NCBI GenBank assembly: GCA_014898415.1
Contig: RCTD01000028.1
Coordinates: forward strand, 248,001-312,000
Direction: 5' to 3'
Origin: Stromatinia cepivora
Taxonomy: Eukaryota; Ascomycota; Leotiomycetes; Helotiales; Sclerotiniaceae
DNA: 64,000 nucleotides
In this document: one piece after another, positions 48,893-64,000 of the stretch
Numbering within the stretch: the stretch's first letter is position 1
Layout: every line of letters starts with the position of its first letter
Position numbers and translations under genes: made by a program
The notes under the pieces: model-generated
The model's database searches: none
What the model saw: only the letters and a program-made list of their open reading frames with translations
What the model was told of the DNA's origin: nothing

Positions 48893-50271
48893 CAGTACTA
48901 ATCAACTTATATTACCCCACAACCTAATTTCAGTTTTTTTATATATTCAATATCTATCTTTCAATTTAATTATAAAATCAACTATTAATTATTATAATCT
49001 AAAATTTGAATATATTGAAGTTTTATATCTATACTATTCCCCAAAAAAAATTCAAATCCTTATCGCTCTACAATTAATCAATATTTTGTATACCAGCCCC
49101 CTGCTACAATACAAACCTTAATTCTATCAGGCATACTCACTCCTAATTTATCGAATAATTCTCAATCTAATATATCCCAAGCTATTTATAAACAATTCTC
49201 TAACCTTTATCTAGTATATTCCGATTCGTTTTTGTCGATTACAATATCAAGAAATATCTTATATAACCTCACTTTTAAAACCTACCAAATATATTTAATA
49301 AAATTGAAATCAGAAGAATAAAAAGGCCAATCCTTTAATATTAGAATCCCTTTCTTTTGAAACCAATCCCGTACTTTATGGATACAATGAATAAAAGCAT
49401 TATCCTGTATAAATTCATACCCTGAACCCAATCTTTCAAAAGCAAGGCCTACTTCAACATCGAGGATCTCGAAATATAAATTGATATTATACCCATATTT
49501 CTTACTCTCAAAATCTCTATCCATTATATATAAATTGCTCCTTTTAAGATCCCAAAAGCCTTCTCAAACCATAATCTTTATATTCTTATTCGTACTATAT
49601 ATTTGAACTATTTTAAGTTCTTATTTCTGAGTAGGAATGCGGAAGCACTATTCTCCTCTTTTACTCTGCCTCCATTCTACAGAGCATTTATTGTTCTATA
49701 TAACTAATCCCCATTCCTCTATTATCAATCCCCTATATACTAGGCACCATACAAGACATTTGAGCATATATACCTGGGTAAGTTCCGGCCGCTTTTTACA
49801 CTTCCAATTAATGATTTTATAAACCTTCAAAATCTTCTTAATAATAAAGGTACTACATTTAAGGCCTACAGCTGTTTTTGTTTGTATATAGATTGATTTT
49901 GGATATAATCGAATATATCGAATTAGTATACGTTCTTCTCTTTCTGTATAAAATCTAATTCGAGGAGTACGAGGTAGATTCATTCCTTCATTGCGTAATG
50001 CATTTTGCTGTAGAATATAACGAACGATTCGCACTTCGAGATTGAGATCAATTACGATACAATAAGGATTAGAATCATTGGAAGCTTTGCCAATAATTTT
50101 GCTACATAAATATGGAGTAAGATGCTTAAAAGCTAGCTCCCTTTCAATATTCAAGATTCTGGGAGTATGTTGTGATGCTATTGATGAATAAATAATAAAG
50201 AGAGTTGAAATTCAATTCGCGAAATTTATGCGTTTTTAAGGTTTTGGGGTAATATAAGTGCACGGTTACTG
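48893..50271 (-). mobile_element. Tc1/mariner-like DNA transposon
   Basis: 1379 bp between TA dinucleotides (48891-48892 and 50272-50273). The ends CAGTACTAATCAACTTATAT and CAGTAACCGTGCACTTATAT (right end reversed) form roughly 30-bp imperfect inverted repeats sharing ACTTATATTACCCCA. The empty site is in Gy2 copy 1 near 9731-9747 (tttatTATAATTATAA). One transposase pseudogene, minus strand, fills the interior. Confidence 0.92.
49080..50154 (-). pseudogene. Tc1-like transposase, inactivated
   Basis: About 350 codons. The N-terminal HTH half (MNIERELAFKHLTPYLCSKI, EREERILIRYIRLYP) is open over 152 codons. The DDE half at 49524-49282 has GYEFIQDNAFIHCIHKVRDW (second Asp) and WPFYSSDFNFIKYIW, where the third catalytic Glu of the usual NPIEHIW motif is Lys. 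The C-terminus has SMPDRIKVCIVAGGWYTKY near 49090. Stops in between look like Trp and Arg codons altered by transitions. The catalytic Glu-to-Lys change also fits G-to-A. Confidence 0.87.
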
Positions 50272-52415: not shown

Positions 52416-52735
52416 TGTTACGACGGCATCCAACATACCGAGTCACATGATCAGGAAGTCACGAAATTAGAGATTCCCACTGGATCCCATTGCTCCCACT
52501 TGGTGGGATATAATGGAATCAATAAGATAACAGAGAATAAAGGTTTATATAAAGAAATGGATTTCATTATAATATAGAGCTTCGTATTCAAGAACAATCA
52601 TTAGTTTCATTATTATAATTACAAGAATTGCAATCAATTACTAACCTTATTGAATTCCTATTTGAAGTCTAGTCTAAACTATCTCGAAAGATCTCTAGCT
52701 ATTTCCATGTAACCCTAAAAACAGCTCCCGTAATA
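52416..52735 (+). repeat. Gy3 5' LTR
   Basis: 320 bp, first third nearly RIP-free, last part RIP-affected (ccatgtaaccc where the 3' LTR has ccacgtgaccc). Confidence 0.9.
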
Positions 52736-52749
52736 TTTTGAATATCATT

Positions 52750-55700
52750 TCTATTTCAAGTATTGATTCAATACTAATCAACAATATAACATCCAGAAAT
52801 ACTAATTCAGGCCAATCTGCATCAGTAATCGACACCGATGATATCGAGATGATCAACGCCCTTAAAGAAATCATCATTAACGAAACATTCAAGATCGCTT
52901 TACTAAACAAATACTAAAGTAGTTGATAGGAACTCGATACCTTTCTATTGCAATTGGAGATTTACTTTAGATTCAATGAGGATAAATTCATTACCACAGA
53001 ATCCAAAAATGTATAGATTACATTGTACTTTCGAGGAGAAATAATCAAATAGATCCAGTTATATTTATACGACTATTTCGAGTATACCGACCAGAATCGC
53101 ATACAATCTATACAAATAATCTTCAATAGTTTTGAAGGTTTTAAAATAGAGATTCACAGGATCTTTGGAAATTCTAATAAGCTAAAAGTAGCGGAAAAGA
53201 AGATCTTTAATTTCAAACAGACAGATTCAGCATTGAAGTATATTACAGAATTTCGAAGATATATAGGAACAATCAATTGGGATGAAACCGCTATCATGAA
53301 TCACTATCGTAAAGGGCTCAAATTAGAGATTAGATTGGAATTAGAAAAAACCATTGCAAATATAAACTTGAACGATCTAATCCAAGACTCTATTGAATCA
53401 GATAATTGTCTTTACAGATTTAAGTAAAGCTAAAGATCATACAAACCTCAAGAAAACCGAAACCAAAAGTATTACTGCAAGAACGAAGGTAGACTACGAT
53501 ACAATCTATAGAGATACAAAGATTTTATAGAATTAAATATTATATATTATATAAATAGAAATGATGATCAGGAAAAGAAATATAGATAAGACAACAACTT
53601 ATACTTTGAATATAGAAAAACAGAGTATCGAGTAGTAGATTATTGAAGTAAGAAAACAGAAGGCAAAAAGGGTAATTTTAAGAATAAATTTGGCAAAAGT
53701 TAATTTAATATTATCTTTATATTATAATTATATACAATCAGTATTACAAGATTAATTATACCATTATTAGTTTACAAAAAAGAGCTAAAAGAAAAAAAGA
53801 TAGAGAATCTTTTATAAATAAATAGAGACCCATAATTAGGAGAATTATAATTTATTCAAGAAATTGATCAATAGAATCATTGTATCTGGAAATTTGAAGA
53901 TATAGATAAAGGAATTATCAATAAGGATCTCAATATAATAGATATTGAAGAAGGAGAATCTTACAAAGTTCGGTATATCAATCAATATTGAATTTTATAA
54001 TTTGGAATTACCATCAATATTTCATTTATAGAAAGAATCAATAAAGAGTATCTATAATAATCAGAACAAAAAGAATTATAGGAAATATTCTATCAATATA
54101 CATCCGAACAGAACGAAAACCAGAACTTGTTTTTATATAGACAAATCAGAAATAAATATTGTATCCAAACTTAGGCCATACTACCATCATCAGTTATAAA
54201 TACAATAATAAGAATAACCCGAAAAAACTATCGATATATTCTATGAAAAGATTTATTCAATAATAAAACTAAATCAAGAATGAATGCAGTTTATTTAGAA
54301 GAAAAAGAACCACGATATGTAACATTTGTCGATGAAATTATCCAGGATCACGAGGACGAGTAAATTATATTATAGTTGAATGCTACAGGATAAACAGGAT
54401 AGATATACTGCAGAATCAAGATAAATGGACAAACACAGTCAATTATGATAAATTCAGGGGCTACAGGGAATTTTATTGCATTAGAAGCTACAAAGTACTT
54501 GGGAATTCTATTCCAAGAGAAACAAGAACCCTACCAATTACAATTAATTGATGAATAATTAGCAAGATCTGATAGAAACGTTTTTCAAAAGATATGATCA
54601 ATACAAATAAGTATAACCTAACATTTGGAGGTTATACAATTTGATATTGTACTATTAGGCCAATAACAGATCATCTTAGGGATGCTATAATTAAAAGTAT
54701 ATAACCCAAGAATAGATTGATCACAAGAAACAATGATATTTGATTAATACAAAAACGATTACAATGATATATTCAAGGTGTTTATGAAATATAATATATA
54801 TCAAGAAGAATTGAATGCGAATAATATCAGTGATATAGGATATCCAGTTTAGAATCCTTTATTAAAAGTGAAAAACAGTACATCTCCTTTACAAATGCAG
54901 AAACCAATGATATGATACAAAATCGCAATCGAGGTAAAAGAGTCTATGATATTAGAACAATATAAGGAATATAAATATGTTTTTAGAGAATCAGAAAATC
55001 ATAAGGCTTTATCAAAATATAAGTTATGGGATTACGAGATAACATTGAAGGATAGCAAAATGTTTATATACATTTTAATTTATTCAATATTAATTGATGA
55101 ATTAAGAACATTTAAAAAATATATCAACGATAATTTGGCTAAGGGATGGATCAGAGAATCCATATCCCAAATAGCAAATCCAATTATGTAGATACTCAAA
55201 AAGAATAGTATTAAGAGATTAGTTGTGGATTATAGAAAGCTCAATATATTTACCAAAAAGGATCGATATCCATTTCTATTAGTTATAGAATTAAGAGATC
55301 GATTAAACAGAGCAACGATATTCATCAAAATGGATCTGTATAATAATTACCATTTGATTAGAATGAAAAAAAGCGAAAAATGGAAAACCGCTTTCAAAAT
55401 TAGATACGGGCTATACGAATACTAGGTTATGCTGTTCGGGCTAATCAATACACTAATAACATTTATGAGATTTATGAATAATATATTATTATAATATTTG
55501 GACATTTGTTGTATATACTACTTAGACGACATTCTAGTATATTCAAACAACGAAGTTCAATATATCAAAAACATCAGTAATATTCTCGAATGTTTAACTA
55601 AAGTTGATTTGTTATATAAATTAAACAAATATGAATTCTATATTACAGAAATAGAGTTTTTAGGATTCATTATATCAAGTTAAAGGCTCAAGATAAGTAA

Positions 55701-57930
55701 GAATAAAATTGAAATAATATTTGAATGAAAGCAGTTTATTATAATTAAAGAAATACAATCTTTTTTAGGATTCGTTAACTTCTATTAAAGATTTATTAAA
55801 GGTTATTCAAGGATTACAATACCTTTAATCAATTTAACCAGAAAAAAGCAAGAAATATTCGAATAAAGCGATAAAGTATAGGAATCATTCGATATACTCA
55901 AATAGGCAATGGCCGAAAAGCCAATACTATTAATATTTGATCTAGAAAAGCAAATCATAGTGGAGACGGATTCCTCAGATTTCGTTATAAAGGCAATTCT
56001 GAGCTAACCAGATCAAAATGAGAAATATCAATCAATTACATTCTATTCTCGAAAACTATTATCAGCAGAATTAAATTATGAAATATATAATAAAGAATTA
56101 CTAACGATAATCGATATATTCAAAGAATAATAAGTATATTTGAAAGGATCAAAATATATAGTACAAGTATATATGGATTATAAGAATTTAATTTACTTTA
56201 TTATAACAAAACAATTGAATAGATAATAGATCAGATAATCGGAAATTATAATCAATTATAACTTTAAGATTTCATATATCAAAGAATCAGAAAATGTTAA
56301 AGCCGATACTTTCAATCGAAAATCAGAATATCAGGAAAACAAATTATATAAATTATATATTATATTCAAATAAGAAAGAGAATTATTAATCTATAATATA
56401 TTATAGCTTACAATTATTTATATATTGAAAGATAATTATTTAAGGAATAAAATTTAATTATATTACGAAAACAACATTACAGTAATATATATATTCAAAA
56501 CAACAAAACCAGGATTCACAATAGAAAATAATATAATATACTTTTATAAAAAAGTATATATTCTTAATCGAATAATTAAGGAATTTGTAATAAAACAATA
56601 TAGATTGCTTATATACAAACATCAAGGAATTACAAGAATATTTATAAAGATATAGGAAATCAATTATTTCCTATAAATAAAAACGATAATTGAAAAAATT
56701 ATTGGAAATTGTAATATTTATATACAGAATAAATCCTTTAGATATACTCTATATAATCAACTCCAGATCCCAAATATATCTTTTCAATTATAGAAGTCCA
56801 TTATATAGGACTTTATAATCAAATTATTATTTTCAAAAAATCCTATTATAAAAATTGAATACAATACAATACTTAATATAATAAATAGATTAACAAAATT
56901 TGTATATATAATATTATTCAAAGAAATATAGATTACTAAATAACTAATATATATATTCTTTAAAATTATAATAAGTATATATAAAATACCAAATAAAATA
57001 ATTTCGGATAGAAATAAACTCTTTATTTCGAAATTCTGGATTACCTTATTAACATTAATAGATATTAAAAGAAAGTTATCGATAATCTTTCATTTATAAA
57101 TAGATGATCAAATAAAAAGAATTAATCAAATAATGGAAGTATATTTTAGATACTATATAAATTATCAATAGAACAATTGAATAGAATTATTATCTATAAT
57201 ACAATTCGTATATAATATATCGGAAACGGAAACTATAAAGATTATATTAATATACACTAACTTTGGATTCAATCCTAAAATATACTAAATATTGATATTA
57301 TAAAAAATTAATACTGAATCAATAATAATACAAATTAAACAATTAAAGGATTTATAAAAGCAGTTTATTTTTAATTTAAGATTTATATCATTTAGAATAA
57401 TAGTTTATTATAATACAAAATATAATATAAAACCTATATTTAAAAAAAGGGATAAAGTTTATTTACTATAATGAAATATCGAAATCAAGAAATCAAACAA
57501 TAAACTCGACTACAGAAAACTAGGATTATTTAAGATTAATAAAATAATAGGAACCATTAATTATCGATTAAAACTATCAGATACAATGAATATCCACCCT
57601 ATATTTCATATATCCTTATTCGAATCAATATCACCAGGAGTACTGAATATATCATTAACGGAAATCGAATCAATCAATCCGAATACTATATACAATATCG
57701 AAATAATACTAGATTGTAAATATATCAAAGATATAATCAAATATTTAATCAAATAGTTAGATTATCCATATACCGAAAATTCATAAGAATTAAGAACAAA
57801 TCTCAATTACTTTGAGAAATTGGAGGTGTTCTATTAGCAATATCCGGATTTACCCAAAAGGAAAAAGAATCCATTAAAGTTAGGATCGAAAGATCCAAAA
57901 AAGAAAAATCGAAAACAAAAAAACCATCGT
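52750..57930 (+). pseudogene. Gy3 gag-pol, RIP-broken
   Basis: Gag (52750-53430): ELDTFLLQLEIYFRFNEDKF, then KYITEFRRYIGTINWDETAI and MNHYRKGLK, the retrotransposon gag core. Protease near 54450: IMINSGATGNFIA, the DSGAT active site with Asp to Asn. RT 55200-55690: VVDYRKLNIFTKKDRYPFLL, IFIKMDLYNNYHLIRMKK, IYYLDDILVYSNNE (YxDD intact), EFLGFIISS. RNase H near 55960: ETDSSDFVIKAIL. Integrase 56560-57250: HQGITRIF, ISDRNKLFISKFW. The chromodomain-like end near 57700-57850 has KYIKDIIKYLIK*LDYPYTENS and YPDLPKRKK. Most stops replace Gln or Trp codons. Confidence 0.87.
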
Positions 57931-58441
57931 TAAAATCAGCAACAGAAATAAACACCAATTCCTTTTCCTTCTCAATATACTCATTTTCCAATCGCTATTC
58001 CTCAACCTCAAACTCTTCAAAAGTTTCAATAATACGAAAATCATATTGAAGCATTTTGCCAATCTTTTCCTGCAAAACACACTTCTGCTTTCGTAGACGA
58101 ACCAACCAAACAATAACTTTAACTATAGCATTCACAATCTTTTCTTTTTCGAATTCAAAATACTTTTCCTCAGAATTAATACAGAATCAATCGCCTGCAG
58201 AGTGGTCATATATGTCATAACGATCATTATTCATACTCTTTATACATTCACTATAATATACAGTATTTAAAAGTACCCGATACTTAAGGTTCTTCTTTAA
58301 ACAATAATTATATTTATAAAATATAATAATATCTTTATTTTTAAAACGAAAATAAATATTTTTATAATTAATAATAGATTTTGAAGAACGAATAACAGAT
58401 ATTATAATAAATAGAAAAAAAGGTATTACAGAATTAATCAA
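57803..58441 (-). pseudogene. Antisense Cys-rich/coiled-coil accessory gene of Gy3
   Basis: One minus-strand frame of about 212 codons interrupted by only two stops (TGA at AGD*FCIN near 58188 and TAG at EVEE*RLEN near 57995), both explainable as Trp and Gln codons changed by G-to-A or C-to-T. Order: YNYCLKKNLKYRV and VYYSECIKS (a CxxC...C...CxxC pattern if two or three Tyr were Cys), YDHSAGD, a coiled coil FEFEKEKIVNAIVKVI...RLRKQKCVLQEKIGKML, an acidic Glu-rich stretch, then a hydrophobic/Ser tail DFSFLDLSILTLMDSFSFWV ending TPPISQSN. It overlaps the pol 3' end tail-to-tail by about 130 bp. I recall very similar zinc-cluster-like plus RLRKQK proteins as numerous uncharacterised predictions in filamentous fungi. 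Role unknown. Confidence 0.68.
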
Positions 58442-58499
58442 ATAAGAGAAATTTACTTTATAAATACTTAGGACAAACGTTAAACTAGGAAAGGGATAG

Positions 58500-58819
58500 T
58501 ATTACAATGATATTCAATATATCGAATCATATAATCAGGAAATCATAAGATTAAAGATTCTCATTGAATCCCATTACTTTTATCTGATAGAATACAATAG
58601 AATCAATAGAACAATAGAAAACGAAGATTTATATAAAAAAATAGATTTCATTATAATATAAAGCTTTATACTCAAGAACAATCATTAATTTCATTACTAT
58701 AATTATAAGAATTGCAACCAATTACCAATCTTATTGAATTCCTATTTGAAGTCTAGTCTAAACCACCTCAAGAGATCTCTAACCACTTCCACGTGACCCT
58801 AGAGGCAGCTCCCGTAACA
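58500..58819 (+). repeat. Gy3 3' LTR
   Basis: 320 bp. The first part is heavily RIP-affected; the last part keeps ccacgtgaccctagaggc with CACGTG at 58790-58795. Confidence 0.9.
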
Positions 58820-59858: not shown

Positions 59859-60179
59859 TTGATTCATAAGAGCCTCAAATCTTATCGAAAAACCTTCGAA
59901 AATTACCTTCAAAACATATACGAATTTGACCTCGAAATAAGCCTTCGAAAACCCTTCGGAATATTATCGAAAACCTTCGAAATTTACCTTCAAAATACAT
60001 ACGAATTTGACCTCGAAATAAGCCTTCGAAAACCCTTCGGAATATTATCGAAAACCTTCGAAAACCCTTTGAAATTCATCTTCGAAATTTACCTTCAAAA
60101 TATATACGAATTTGACTTTAAAACGAATCTTCGAAAACCCTTCGGAATATTGTCGAAAACCCTATCAAAAATACTATAA
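59859..60179 (+). repeat. Lard1 array 1: 81-bp in-frame tandem repeat
   Basis: Three units begin at about 59905, 59986 and 60091; the first period is 81 bp and the third carries a 24-bp insertion. All three keep one open frame of 27-residue units (YLQNIYEFDLEISLRKPFGI, then LSKTFE). Without other coding evidence I treat it as a repeat whose unit length happens to preserve the frame. Confidence 0.75.
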
Positions 60180-60984: not shown

Positions 60985-61150
60985 AAAAGTATACCAAATC
61001 GAAAATATACCGAATCCAAATCGAAAGTATACCGAATCCGAATCGAAAGTATATCGAATCCAAATCGAAAGTATATCGAATCCAAATCGAAAGTATATAT
61101 ATCGAATCCGAATCAAAAGTATATTTATCGAAATCGTACCGAAATCGTAT
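60985..61150 (+). repeat. Lard1 array 2: 22-bp tandem repeat
   Basis: About six units of ATCGAAAGTATAYCGAATCC plus two bases, degenerating at both ends into a shorter ATCGAAAT motif. Confidence 0.85.
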
Positions 61151-61386
61151 CGAAATCGAACTGAAAATGGATCGAAAATGAATATATATATAAAGGTTTT
61201 TAAATGATATTGAAGAGTTTTCAAAGAAGTGAAAATACTGAACTTTATAAAATGAAGATGTAAATATTATAATTTCATTATTGAAGGAATTATTATAGAT
61301 TTAATCGTTATATAGAGTTTTTCATTGGAGTTTCAATTCAATCGATTATTGTAGAGTTAGGAATAGAGGAATTGGAAGAGTTGAAA

Positions 61387-61640
61387 AGGTTTCGATGGAT
61401 TTACGATGATTCTATGAAAAGGTATACTGTATACTATCGATGATTTTATGAAAAAAGTATACAATATAATACGATGGTTTTACGAAAAAGTATATAATAC
61501 AATATCGATGGATTTACAATGGTTTTACGAAAAGGTATATAATACAATATCAATGATTTTATGAAAAGGTATACAATATAATATCGATGGATTTATAATA
61601 GTTTTATGAAAAGATATATAATACAATATCGAATGATATT
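61387..61640 (+). repeat. Lard1 array 3: irregular tandem repeat of about 45-60 bp
   Basis: Repeated blocks of GATGGATTTACGATGG, TTTTACGAAAAGGTATA and YAATACAATATC, in five or six variably sized units. Confidence 0.75.
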
Positions 61641-61989: not shown

Positions 61990-64000
61990 TTATTTCTTTC
62001 TAAAAATTAAAAAAGAATAATAGGATTTGTAATTTGTTATAAAACTAATAATACTTTATAATTGTTTATTAACAAATAATATATATTTGTATATACTTTT
62101 TTATATTTTTTATTATATTAAACCAGAAATACTTGTTTTTCAGGATCTCCCAGATTTTCTTGATACCTTAATAATCTTTTATAAAATCATTATAATGAAC
62201 CTTCAAAATTTCGATTTTTATAATTCTATTTAATAATATAAAGACGTATCTATTATAAATAAATAAACTATTAGTATTGATTTTTCAAAATACAGTATCT
62301 TCAATTAAATCATATTGATATTTTAAATACTCTTTGTTTTTTATAAAATTATTATTTTTTGAAATCATAATAAAGCATTTTTCATTAATTCCAATATTAA
62401 TTCAAATATTATTTTGTTATTAATTAATATATTAATTATCCAATATAATATCGATTATTTATAATTAATTTTTATCAACGATCCTTTAAAATCATATAAA
62501 AACAAACTATATCTCTTTTATTAAAAAAAGTTTATAATATTCTATAAAAAATTTGTTTCTACTTTCAAAAAAAAAGAAAATTGCGATTATTATCGTAATA
62601 CTTTTCAATTTATTTTGTAATATAAATAATATTTCGTTGATATTATTTATATTTTCTATATAATCTAATTATCTCAATAGATTATTGATAGAATTTAATT
62701 TGCCCAATCTATATATAATTATAAAATCGTAAACAATCAAAATTTCGGTTCATTATACTTATCTATTATTGAATTCTTTTTTTTTATAAAGTATTAAAGA
62801 TTATTATAATCCATTTTAATTATAATAATATATCGATTACTTGTAATATAATATTATTATTAAATAAAAGCTATATAAATAGTCAAAAGTTCCTAATTAT
62901 AAGTAAAGTATCTTTATTTTGTTAAATTGAATTTTCGCGAATAGAAAGTAATAAGATATTATCGAGAAATAATAGGATCATTTAATTATCAGGGAATAAT
63001 TGAGAGAGTATATATTTTAATACAAATTCAAAAATATCGATTTCGATTAAGATTCGGAATGCTGGATCAAAATATCAGAGTATCGATATTGTAATAAAGG
63101 TTTCTTTTAAATTATTAAAAGCATTTTGAGCTTTTCTTATTTATTTGAATTTTAATATAATCTTTCCTTTTTTGGTATTTTGTAACAAGTTTATTAAACT
63201 ATAGACAATTTGCAAATAAACTATAATAAACTATTAATAGAAATTTACAAAATCTAAAAAGACTTGAATTTCGTAAAGGAATATCGATATAGACCATTTA
63301 ATAATGATTTGAATTCTGTTTAATTCTATAATGATACTCTTCCTTAATATAATAAAACCTAGGAATTCCATTTTGTATATATAGAATATATATTTCTTTG
63401 ATTTGATATAAAATTTATATTCAAACAATTTGACGAAGACTCTATAGATATCAATAATATAGATTTCCTTATTTTTAGAATAAATAAAAATATTATCAAA
63501 GTATATAATACAAATATTATCTATAAGATTGATAAATGCTTGATTAATATATATTTGAAAGATAATAGGGATATTAATCAGATTGAAAGGTATAATTAAA
63601 TATTCGAACTATTTATAATAGATATAGAATACTATTTTCCATTCATTATTTTTCTATATATATATTCAATGATATATATCTTTAAGATCGAATTTTGTAA
63701 AGAAAACCCTTTGCTTTAAATGATCCAATGATTCATTAATTAAAGGTAAAAGGGTATAATCCTTTTTTGTAATCCAATTAAAACTATAATAATCGATATA
63801 TAATTAATAACTATTTTCTTTCTTTAAAATAAATATAATCAAAGTTTCAACAGAATTAATTGAATAACAAATCCAATCTTTCTTTTAGTATTCTTCAAAA
63901 TATTTTTGTAGAATTATTAATTCCTTTTCCGAAAAAGTATATATTGATTTTCAAAAGAAGATTGATCCGGGTTCAAAGTTAATATAATATTTCATCAAAT
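61990..64000 (-). pseudogene. Gy2 pol remnant: integrase N-terminus to reverse transcriptase
   Basis: Minus strand. The open piece 63428-63234 reads FEYKFYIKSKKY...MEFLGFIILRKSI then IQVFLDFVNFY, the RT thumb/RNase H connection (EFLGFIIS, IQxFLGFANFY). Further upstream, near 63500, ICIIYFDNIFIYSKNKE is the YxDD box with the second Asp as Asn. The RT palm continues to the right edge. Stops are frequent. Between about 62000 and 63000 the frame is too decayed to assign. Confidence 0.72.

Follow-up and report, generated by a model that had tools for sequence, protein, structure and literature searches.

An antisense frame of a chromodomain gypsy element in Stromatinia cepivora read as a RIP-inactivated copy of BRTN with a Zn2Cys6-like cluster layout

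The 64,000-nucleotide stretch of Stromatinia cepivora DNA analysed here (contig RCTD01000028.1, positions 248,001 to 312,000; hereafter the window) carries at 52416-58819 a gypsy element damaged by repeat-induced point mutation (RIP), and on the minus strand, between the end of its pol gene and its 3′ long terminal repeat (LTR), lies a broken gene of about 200 codons (57803-58405). Judged by its sequence, this frame is a RIP-inactivated copy of BRTN, a gene class already known, found here in a different genus. The gene belongs to one chromodomain gypsy lineage, and we lean, by a little, towards its working protein having been a small nuclear DNA-binding regulator.

An earlier note on this DNA had placed a minus-strand frame at 57803-58441, and the frame proved real: the only internal stops are TGA at 58187-58189 and TAG at 57995-57997, before the terminal TGA at 57803-57805. 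Both were described there as stops of the kind RIP creates, and some sister copies read tryptophan or glutamine at these codons. Upstream, the frame stays open as far as the LTR edge at 58501, from which codons are numbered here. Position 58441 did not hold as the start of the gene. The alignment of relatives begins at codon 33, which is methionine or isoleucine in the copies, and the likely start is therefore 58405-58403, now ATA with the start codon lost (methionine in some copies), 58406-58441 being probably leader. The proposed CxxC-type cluster with cysteines turned into tyrosines is present at 58217-58312 (minus strand), its exact form being C-x2-C-x6-C-x8-C-x2-C-x8-C; the window copy keeps 2 of the 6 cysteines and now reads Y, C, Y, Y, C, Y. 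A coiled-coil region with RLRKQK and an acidic segment at its end follows (57998-58174, minus strand), for which models of relatives predict helices. The serine- and phenylalanine-rich tail (57806-57937) was also recovered, and it is mostly the antisense of the lysine-rich C-terminus of pol.

This tail is where a chance open frame, or an antisense shadow of pol, would find its argument, as the last 42 codons overlap pol and its conservation could cause theirs; the tail-to-tail overlap, also seen earlier, spans 131 bp (57803-57933) and ends at the pol stop, TAA at 57931-57933. Yet about 470 of the 603 nt lie outside pol, and in first-order simulations of the 603-nt gene the most open of the six frames had at most three stops at a rate of 0.003; database homologues match over the full length. 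We find chance or shadow scarcely credible. The remaining five frames carry 9 to 32 stops each over 58501-57803.

A DNA search with the antisense stretch finds 37 matching places in the genome. Besides the window, 15 of them match at full or nearly full length with 78-83% identity, and one further full-length place has 70%; the window and the 15 are the 16 family copies referred to below. Read in the window's register, each family copy has 2 to 6 internal stops. These fall in 10 columns. In nine of them W, Q or R stands in other copies, the pattern expected of RIP, the tenth (column 171) being L elsewhere and a stop in one copy. At the six cluster columns, all 96 of 96 cells hold cysteine or tyrosine (37 C, 59 Y). 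Transversions were counted because RIP does not make them, using the family copies together with five divergent ones (L025, L027, L028, L035 and L039) and leaving out shorter or partial places. Across these 21 copies the transversion columns in codons 64-189 are distributed 27/14/50 over codon positions 1/2/3 (p=2e-5), and those in codons 33-232 are distributed 42/32/69 (p=5e-4). The earlier note had suggested looking for selection on the minus strand, and because of this third-position excess we conclude that the antisense protein was under past protein-level selection.

Several points limit this conclusion or count against it. The chi-square test takes columns as independent, which limits the p values, and the signal needs the five divergent copies, the 16 family copies alone giving 4/8/6 columns, too few for a bias. 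Moreover, codons 1-32 show no codon-position bias (18/13/13), and codons 33-63 (7/5/11) and 190-232 (8/13/8) no significant one, the latter, in the pol overlap, having no third-position excess. From the coordinates, the wobble position of pol in the overlap falls on position 2 of the antisense frame, and on this sequence the tail need not have been selected on its own account. Perhaps the antisense transcript itself matters, for instance as double-stranded RNA setting silencing, the protein being secondary. This is raised for plant antisense open reading frames (ORFs) in the accessible part of PMC7264820, and Botrytis small RNAs from LTR elements are described in that of PMC8365987. Nevertheless, the third-position excess and the near-complete C/Y conservation at the cluster columns require a protein, and we consider such a role for the transcript improbable.

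The X-masked window protein had no match in Pfam and, searched alone, found nothing at E≤1 in the protein database; Rfam at gathering thresholds also gave no match. A profile of 13 copies was therefore needed, and it returned one database match, P0001 of Sclerotinia nivalis (E=1e-12). With P0001 as the query, 22 further relatives appeared at E≤0.01, P0023 being marginal (E=1e-3), and their named sources are Sclerotinia, Botrytis, Monilinia, Stromatinia, Rutstroemia and Rhynchosporium. The proteins listed are approximately 175-256 residues long, with P0022 shorter. P0003 is named “Putative BRTN”, and the name of P0002 begins “Zn(2)-C6 fungal-ty”, so automatic annotation had already detected the cluster. 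Compared by hhalign, the 13-copy profile matches P0003 with a probability of 98.7% (E=3e-16), P0015 with 99.85% and a 20-protein alignment, over codons 33-232, with 99.8%. Viral contigs scanned with A1 and P0001 yielded no confirmed relative.

Because a protein named “Putative BRTN” is among the relatives, the kind of gene is already known, and the novelty first seen in this antisense gene class falls away. In fact, brtn is said to have been put on record in 2011, by Zhao et al. (Virology 417:248), as a further gene of Boty-like elements, in antisense. As in those elements, the frame occupies the interval from pol to the 3′ LTR of a chromodomain gypsy, in antisense orientation, and its protein is homologous over most of its length; unlike them, the window copy is RIP-broken and belongs to another genus, and a zinc-cluster layout and a palindrome are described here. 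The portion of PMC7264820 at hand reports such ORFs in Boty of Botrytis cinerea and Sclerotinia sclerotiorum and calls their function not known. PMC8365987, in the text available, treats brtn as one more ORF of BcGypsy1 and remarks on its absence from the last B05.10 annotation, and PMC5987419, in the part available, gives a Monilinia transcript resembling truncated Pol and BRTN, with the strand not stated there.

Two of the relatives bear further marks of the element. In P0006, annotated as a hypothetical protein of Monilinia fructigena, the C-terminal 50 residues correspond to the chromodomain region of our loci read in antisense, and the protein record by itself therefore places the same arrangement in a second species. 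In P0022 (Rhynchosporium agropyri) tyrosine stands where its relatives have cysteine, as would be expected if a RIP-damaged copy had been taken for a gene. A separate observation is that P0010 resembles P0008 in its N-terminal half and P0003 in its C-terminal tail, a mosaic that suggests recombination between elements.

The idea of an antisense accessory gene encoded by a retroelement in many copies was borne out by its linkage to pol. We examined 51 loci, 49 of them distinct (L022 and L063 are the same place, as are L028 and L059), and pol lies on the opposite strand, downstream of the frame, in 49 of the 51 (47 of the 49 distinct ones), no pol match on that strand being found at L025 and L030. 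The gap between the frame and the pol match is 23-52 bp in 36 of the 49 loci that have pol opposite. DNA and protein searches merged give 64 places with the frame, 59 of which have a strong chromodomain match opposite; conversely, 59 of the 65 strong chromodomain places listed have the frame, and one of the other six, C35, shows it on reading the DNA (L073). These lists of frames and chromodomains are lower bounds, which limits the reading that follows. Among 26 weaker chromodomain places, 2 are linked to a frame, both adjoining strong matches, and 24 have no listed frame nearby, 16 of these having open frames of 372-1384 aa. Our reading is that one chromodomain gypsy lineage carries the gene and another lacks it; its presence in gypsy elements generally, as had been supposed, is not what this genome shows. 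The linkage to a gypsy 3′ LTR that was to be looked for was found, with an LTR match 58-76 bp from the 5′ side of the frame in 14 of the 16 family copies; in the other 2, foreign sequence follows the polypurine tract or breaks the LTR.

The suspicion that such genes have been counted as host genes holds for at least one annotated case, as the open frame of locus L045 contains P0008 (EAF04_006770 of Stromatinia cepivora) letter for letter. Conversely, these could be a host gene family, or host-captured copies, with an incidental gypsy link. At L044 and L045 the open antisense frame has a GC content of 0.43-0.53 and the adjoining pol drops to 0.18-0.39 over the next kb, which would suit a retained gene. 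RIP sparing a divergent sequence explains this GC step equally, so that either may apply, and domestication of the two copies is a weak rival. Moreover, both still have a polypurine tract and an LTR start upstream of the frame, and the pol end stands opposite in those 59 of 64 places; a host origin is, in our opinion, very unlikely.

What the protein does is suggested by its cysteines. The six-cysteine spacing of Zn2Cys6 is found in strict form in 12 of the 23 database proteins, with a longer loop in 1 and as C or Y in 4, the other 6 not having it, and for none of the four proteins tested did any of 20000 shuffles reproduce it. A long coiled coil follows the cluster. Models of P0003 and P0015 (mean predicted local distance difference test scores 79.8 and 81.5) show an N-terminal helix, a six-cysteine region that contains short helices, a pair of long helices and a tail of low confidence, the cluster and helices being confident. 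In Foldseek, the Zn2Cys6 domain of Leu3 ranks first for both models (E 3-5, not significant alone). In a second structure comparison all 33 residues of 1cld, which we take to be Lac9, were aligned, at 1.7 Å, and Hap1, Put3 and Pho7 were also listed. On the opposite side, the curated Pfam Zn_clus cut-off was not reached (best 14.9 bits versus 21; E≤1 in 5 of 20 members, best 0.029), and the fold matches are weak, the unrelated helical chains 8glv and 2wvf coming first by Z. Rows for solved structures found by sequence were weak, were taken as coiled-coil noise and were set aside.

The module is probably a divergent Zn2Cys6 with a coiled-coil dimer arm, as far as models can tell, and because it lies below the Zn_clus cut-off we describe it as Zn2Cys6-like, in form and probably in function, rather than file it as a member. 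It shares with fungal Zn2Cys6 (GAL4-type) transcription factors the cysteine spacing, the order of cluster and then coiled coil, and the best fold matches; it differs from them in scoring under that cut-off, in being encoded antisense by a retroelement and in its length of approximately 175-256 residues. The cluster makes a nucleic-acid-binding role likelier. Perhaps BRTN works outside transcription, using cluster and coiled coil for packaging, for integration targeting, or for binding element RNA or Gag/Pol. The weak match to Zn_clus, the chromodomain that the lineage also carries and the long helices, which fit protein-protein contacts, speak for this; the cysteine spacing and the best fold matches favour DNA-binding domains, and an antisense gene would need its own transcript, separate from the gag-pol RNA. 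We hold such a role to be possible, if doubtful. In the literature searched, with subscription papers mostly outside its scope, neither a Zn2Cys6 cluster in BRTN nor the palindrome was mentioned; the layout and the palindrome are presented here as the new points, the gene class itself being known.

The palindrome stands beside the polypurine tract (58487-58499, plus strand, read directly), with a RIP-damaged copy in the window at 58465-58483 (plus strand), before the tract. At L044 and L045, where the gene is open, it reads CGCTTGGGGCAAGCGCTA and lies 3 bp before the tract. The least damaged copies have CGCTTG-GGG-CAAGCG, and the palindrome is kept across divergent copies. A RIP-tolerant pattern of it is present at 35 of 41 loci, and at 30 of these its distance from the tract is exactly 3 bp; simulations match it at about 1e-4. 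The 6 loci without a match weaken the case. Motif and tract together occur at 42 sites genome-wide, against 0 for the reversed control, and the gene is beside the palindrome at all 42 (40 listed frames, 2 on reading the DNA). It may be the site that the protein binds, belong to a promoter or take part in plus-strand priming. A conserved RNA hairpin was considered here and finds no support, the folds of L045 (z -3.85) and L044 (z -0.33) being different.

Returning to BRTN as a regulator, we infer the nuclear and DNA-binding part, and likewise the step from a Zn2Cys6-like module to regulation of the element. The N-terminal cluster would contact DNA and the long coiled coil would form a dimer; the protein would act on its own element, possibly at the palindrome by the polypurine tract or at the LTR, and so set the transcription or copy number of the element. 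Like HBZ of human T-cell leukemia virus type 1 (HTLV-1), it would be expressed from an antisense promoter that lies within the 3′ LTR or close to it. Retroviruses do have such antisense-encoded regulators, according to the accessible part of PMC10186651. HBZ resembles the proposed protein in how it works, being a nuclear factor of the DNA-binding type with a dimerising helix, encoded in antisense next to the 3′ LTR; unlike it, HBZ is a retroviral bZIP protein with no zinc cluster, and no homology is claimed. Tentatively, and with clear reserve, one may go further and imagine BRTN as a GAL4-like antisense factor, a fungal parallel to HBZ, binding the palindrome by the polypurine tract of its own element and coupling the transcription or plus-strand priming of that element to its copy number.

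The plant aORF-3R genes (Grande gene23, RIRE2, Retand TRP28) are likewise antisense accessory genes between pol and the 3′ LTR, and the passages seen of PMC7264820 and PMC11963269 describe the Grande protein as nuclear and TRP28 as predicted to bind DNA. They differ in their protein domains, and TRP28 is, in the same passages, said to be confined to flowering plants. The zinc-cluster layout and the co-occurring palindrome give an unexplained gene class a binding hypothesis. As the linkage shows, some of the proteins annotated as host-encoded in these fungi come from retroelement genes, and tallies of regulators and of lineage-specific genes are affected accordingly; if the GAL4-like proposal were true, some “host” proteins of the Sclerotiniaceae would be retroelement regulators.

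The element itself has 320-bp LTRs with edges read directly. The 5′ LTR (52416-52735, plus strand) begins TGTTACG and is 81% identical over 306 bp to the 3′ LTR paired with it (58500-58819, plus strand), and this LTR family is also present elsewhere in the genome. The sense frames, all on the plus strand, are broken by stops into short pieces: a gag remnant at 53053-53427 (Pfam Retrotrans_gag, E=1.9e-8), reverse transcriptase pieces of the broken pol at 55192-55683 (RVT_1, 9e-6, below cut-off, and 1.3e-8) and the pol 3′ end at 57475-57933, with a Tf2-1-like integrase SH3 (SH3_Tf2-1, E=1e-11), a chromodomain remnant and the lysine-rich tail. This pol end is 58% identical over 103 aa to the L044 peptide carrying Pfam Chromo. 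At the start of the 5′ LTR (52424-52440) stands CGG-N11-CCG, found, among the LTR starts compared, in the window LTR family only. Its spacing resembles that of a Gal4 site, a likeness given no weight, since the LTR starts of L045 and of other lineages are without it. Elsewhere in the window, an open frame at 49699-50211 (minus strand) has a weak match, below cut-off, to a Tc3-type transposase helix-turn-helix (E=0.004), and 63237-63608 (minus strand) holds a reverse transcriptase piece of a different retroelement (RVT_1, E=5e-10). Tandem arrays with units of 81, 22, 45 and 79 bp lie between retroelement remnants at 59878-60064 and 60994-61637.
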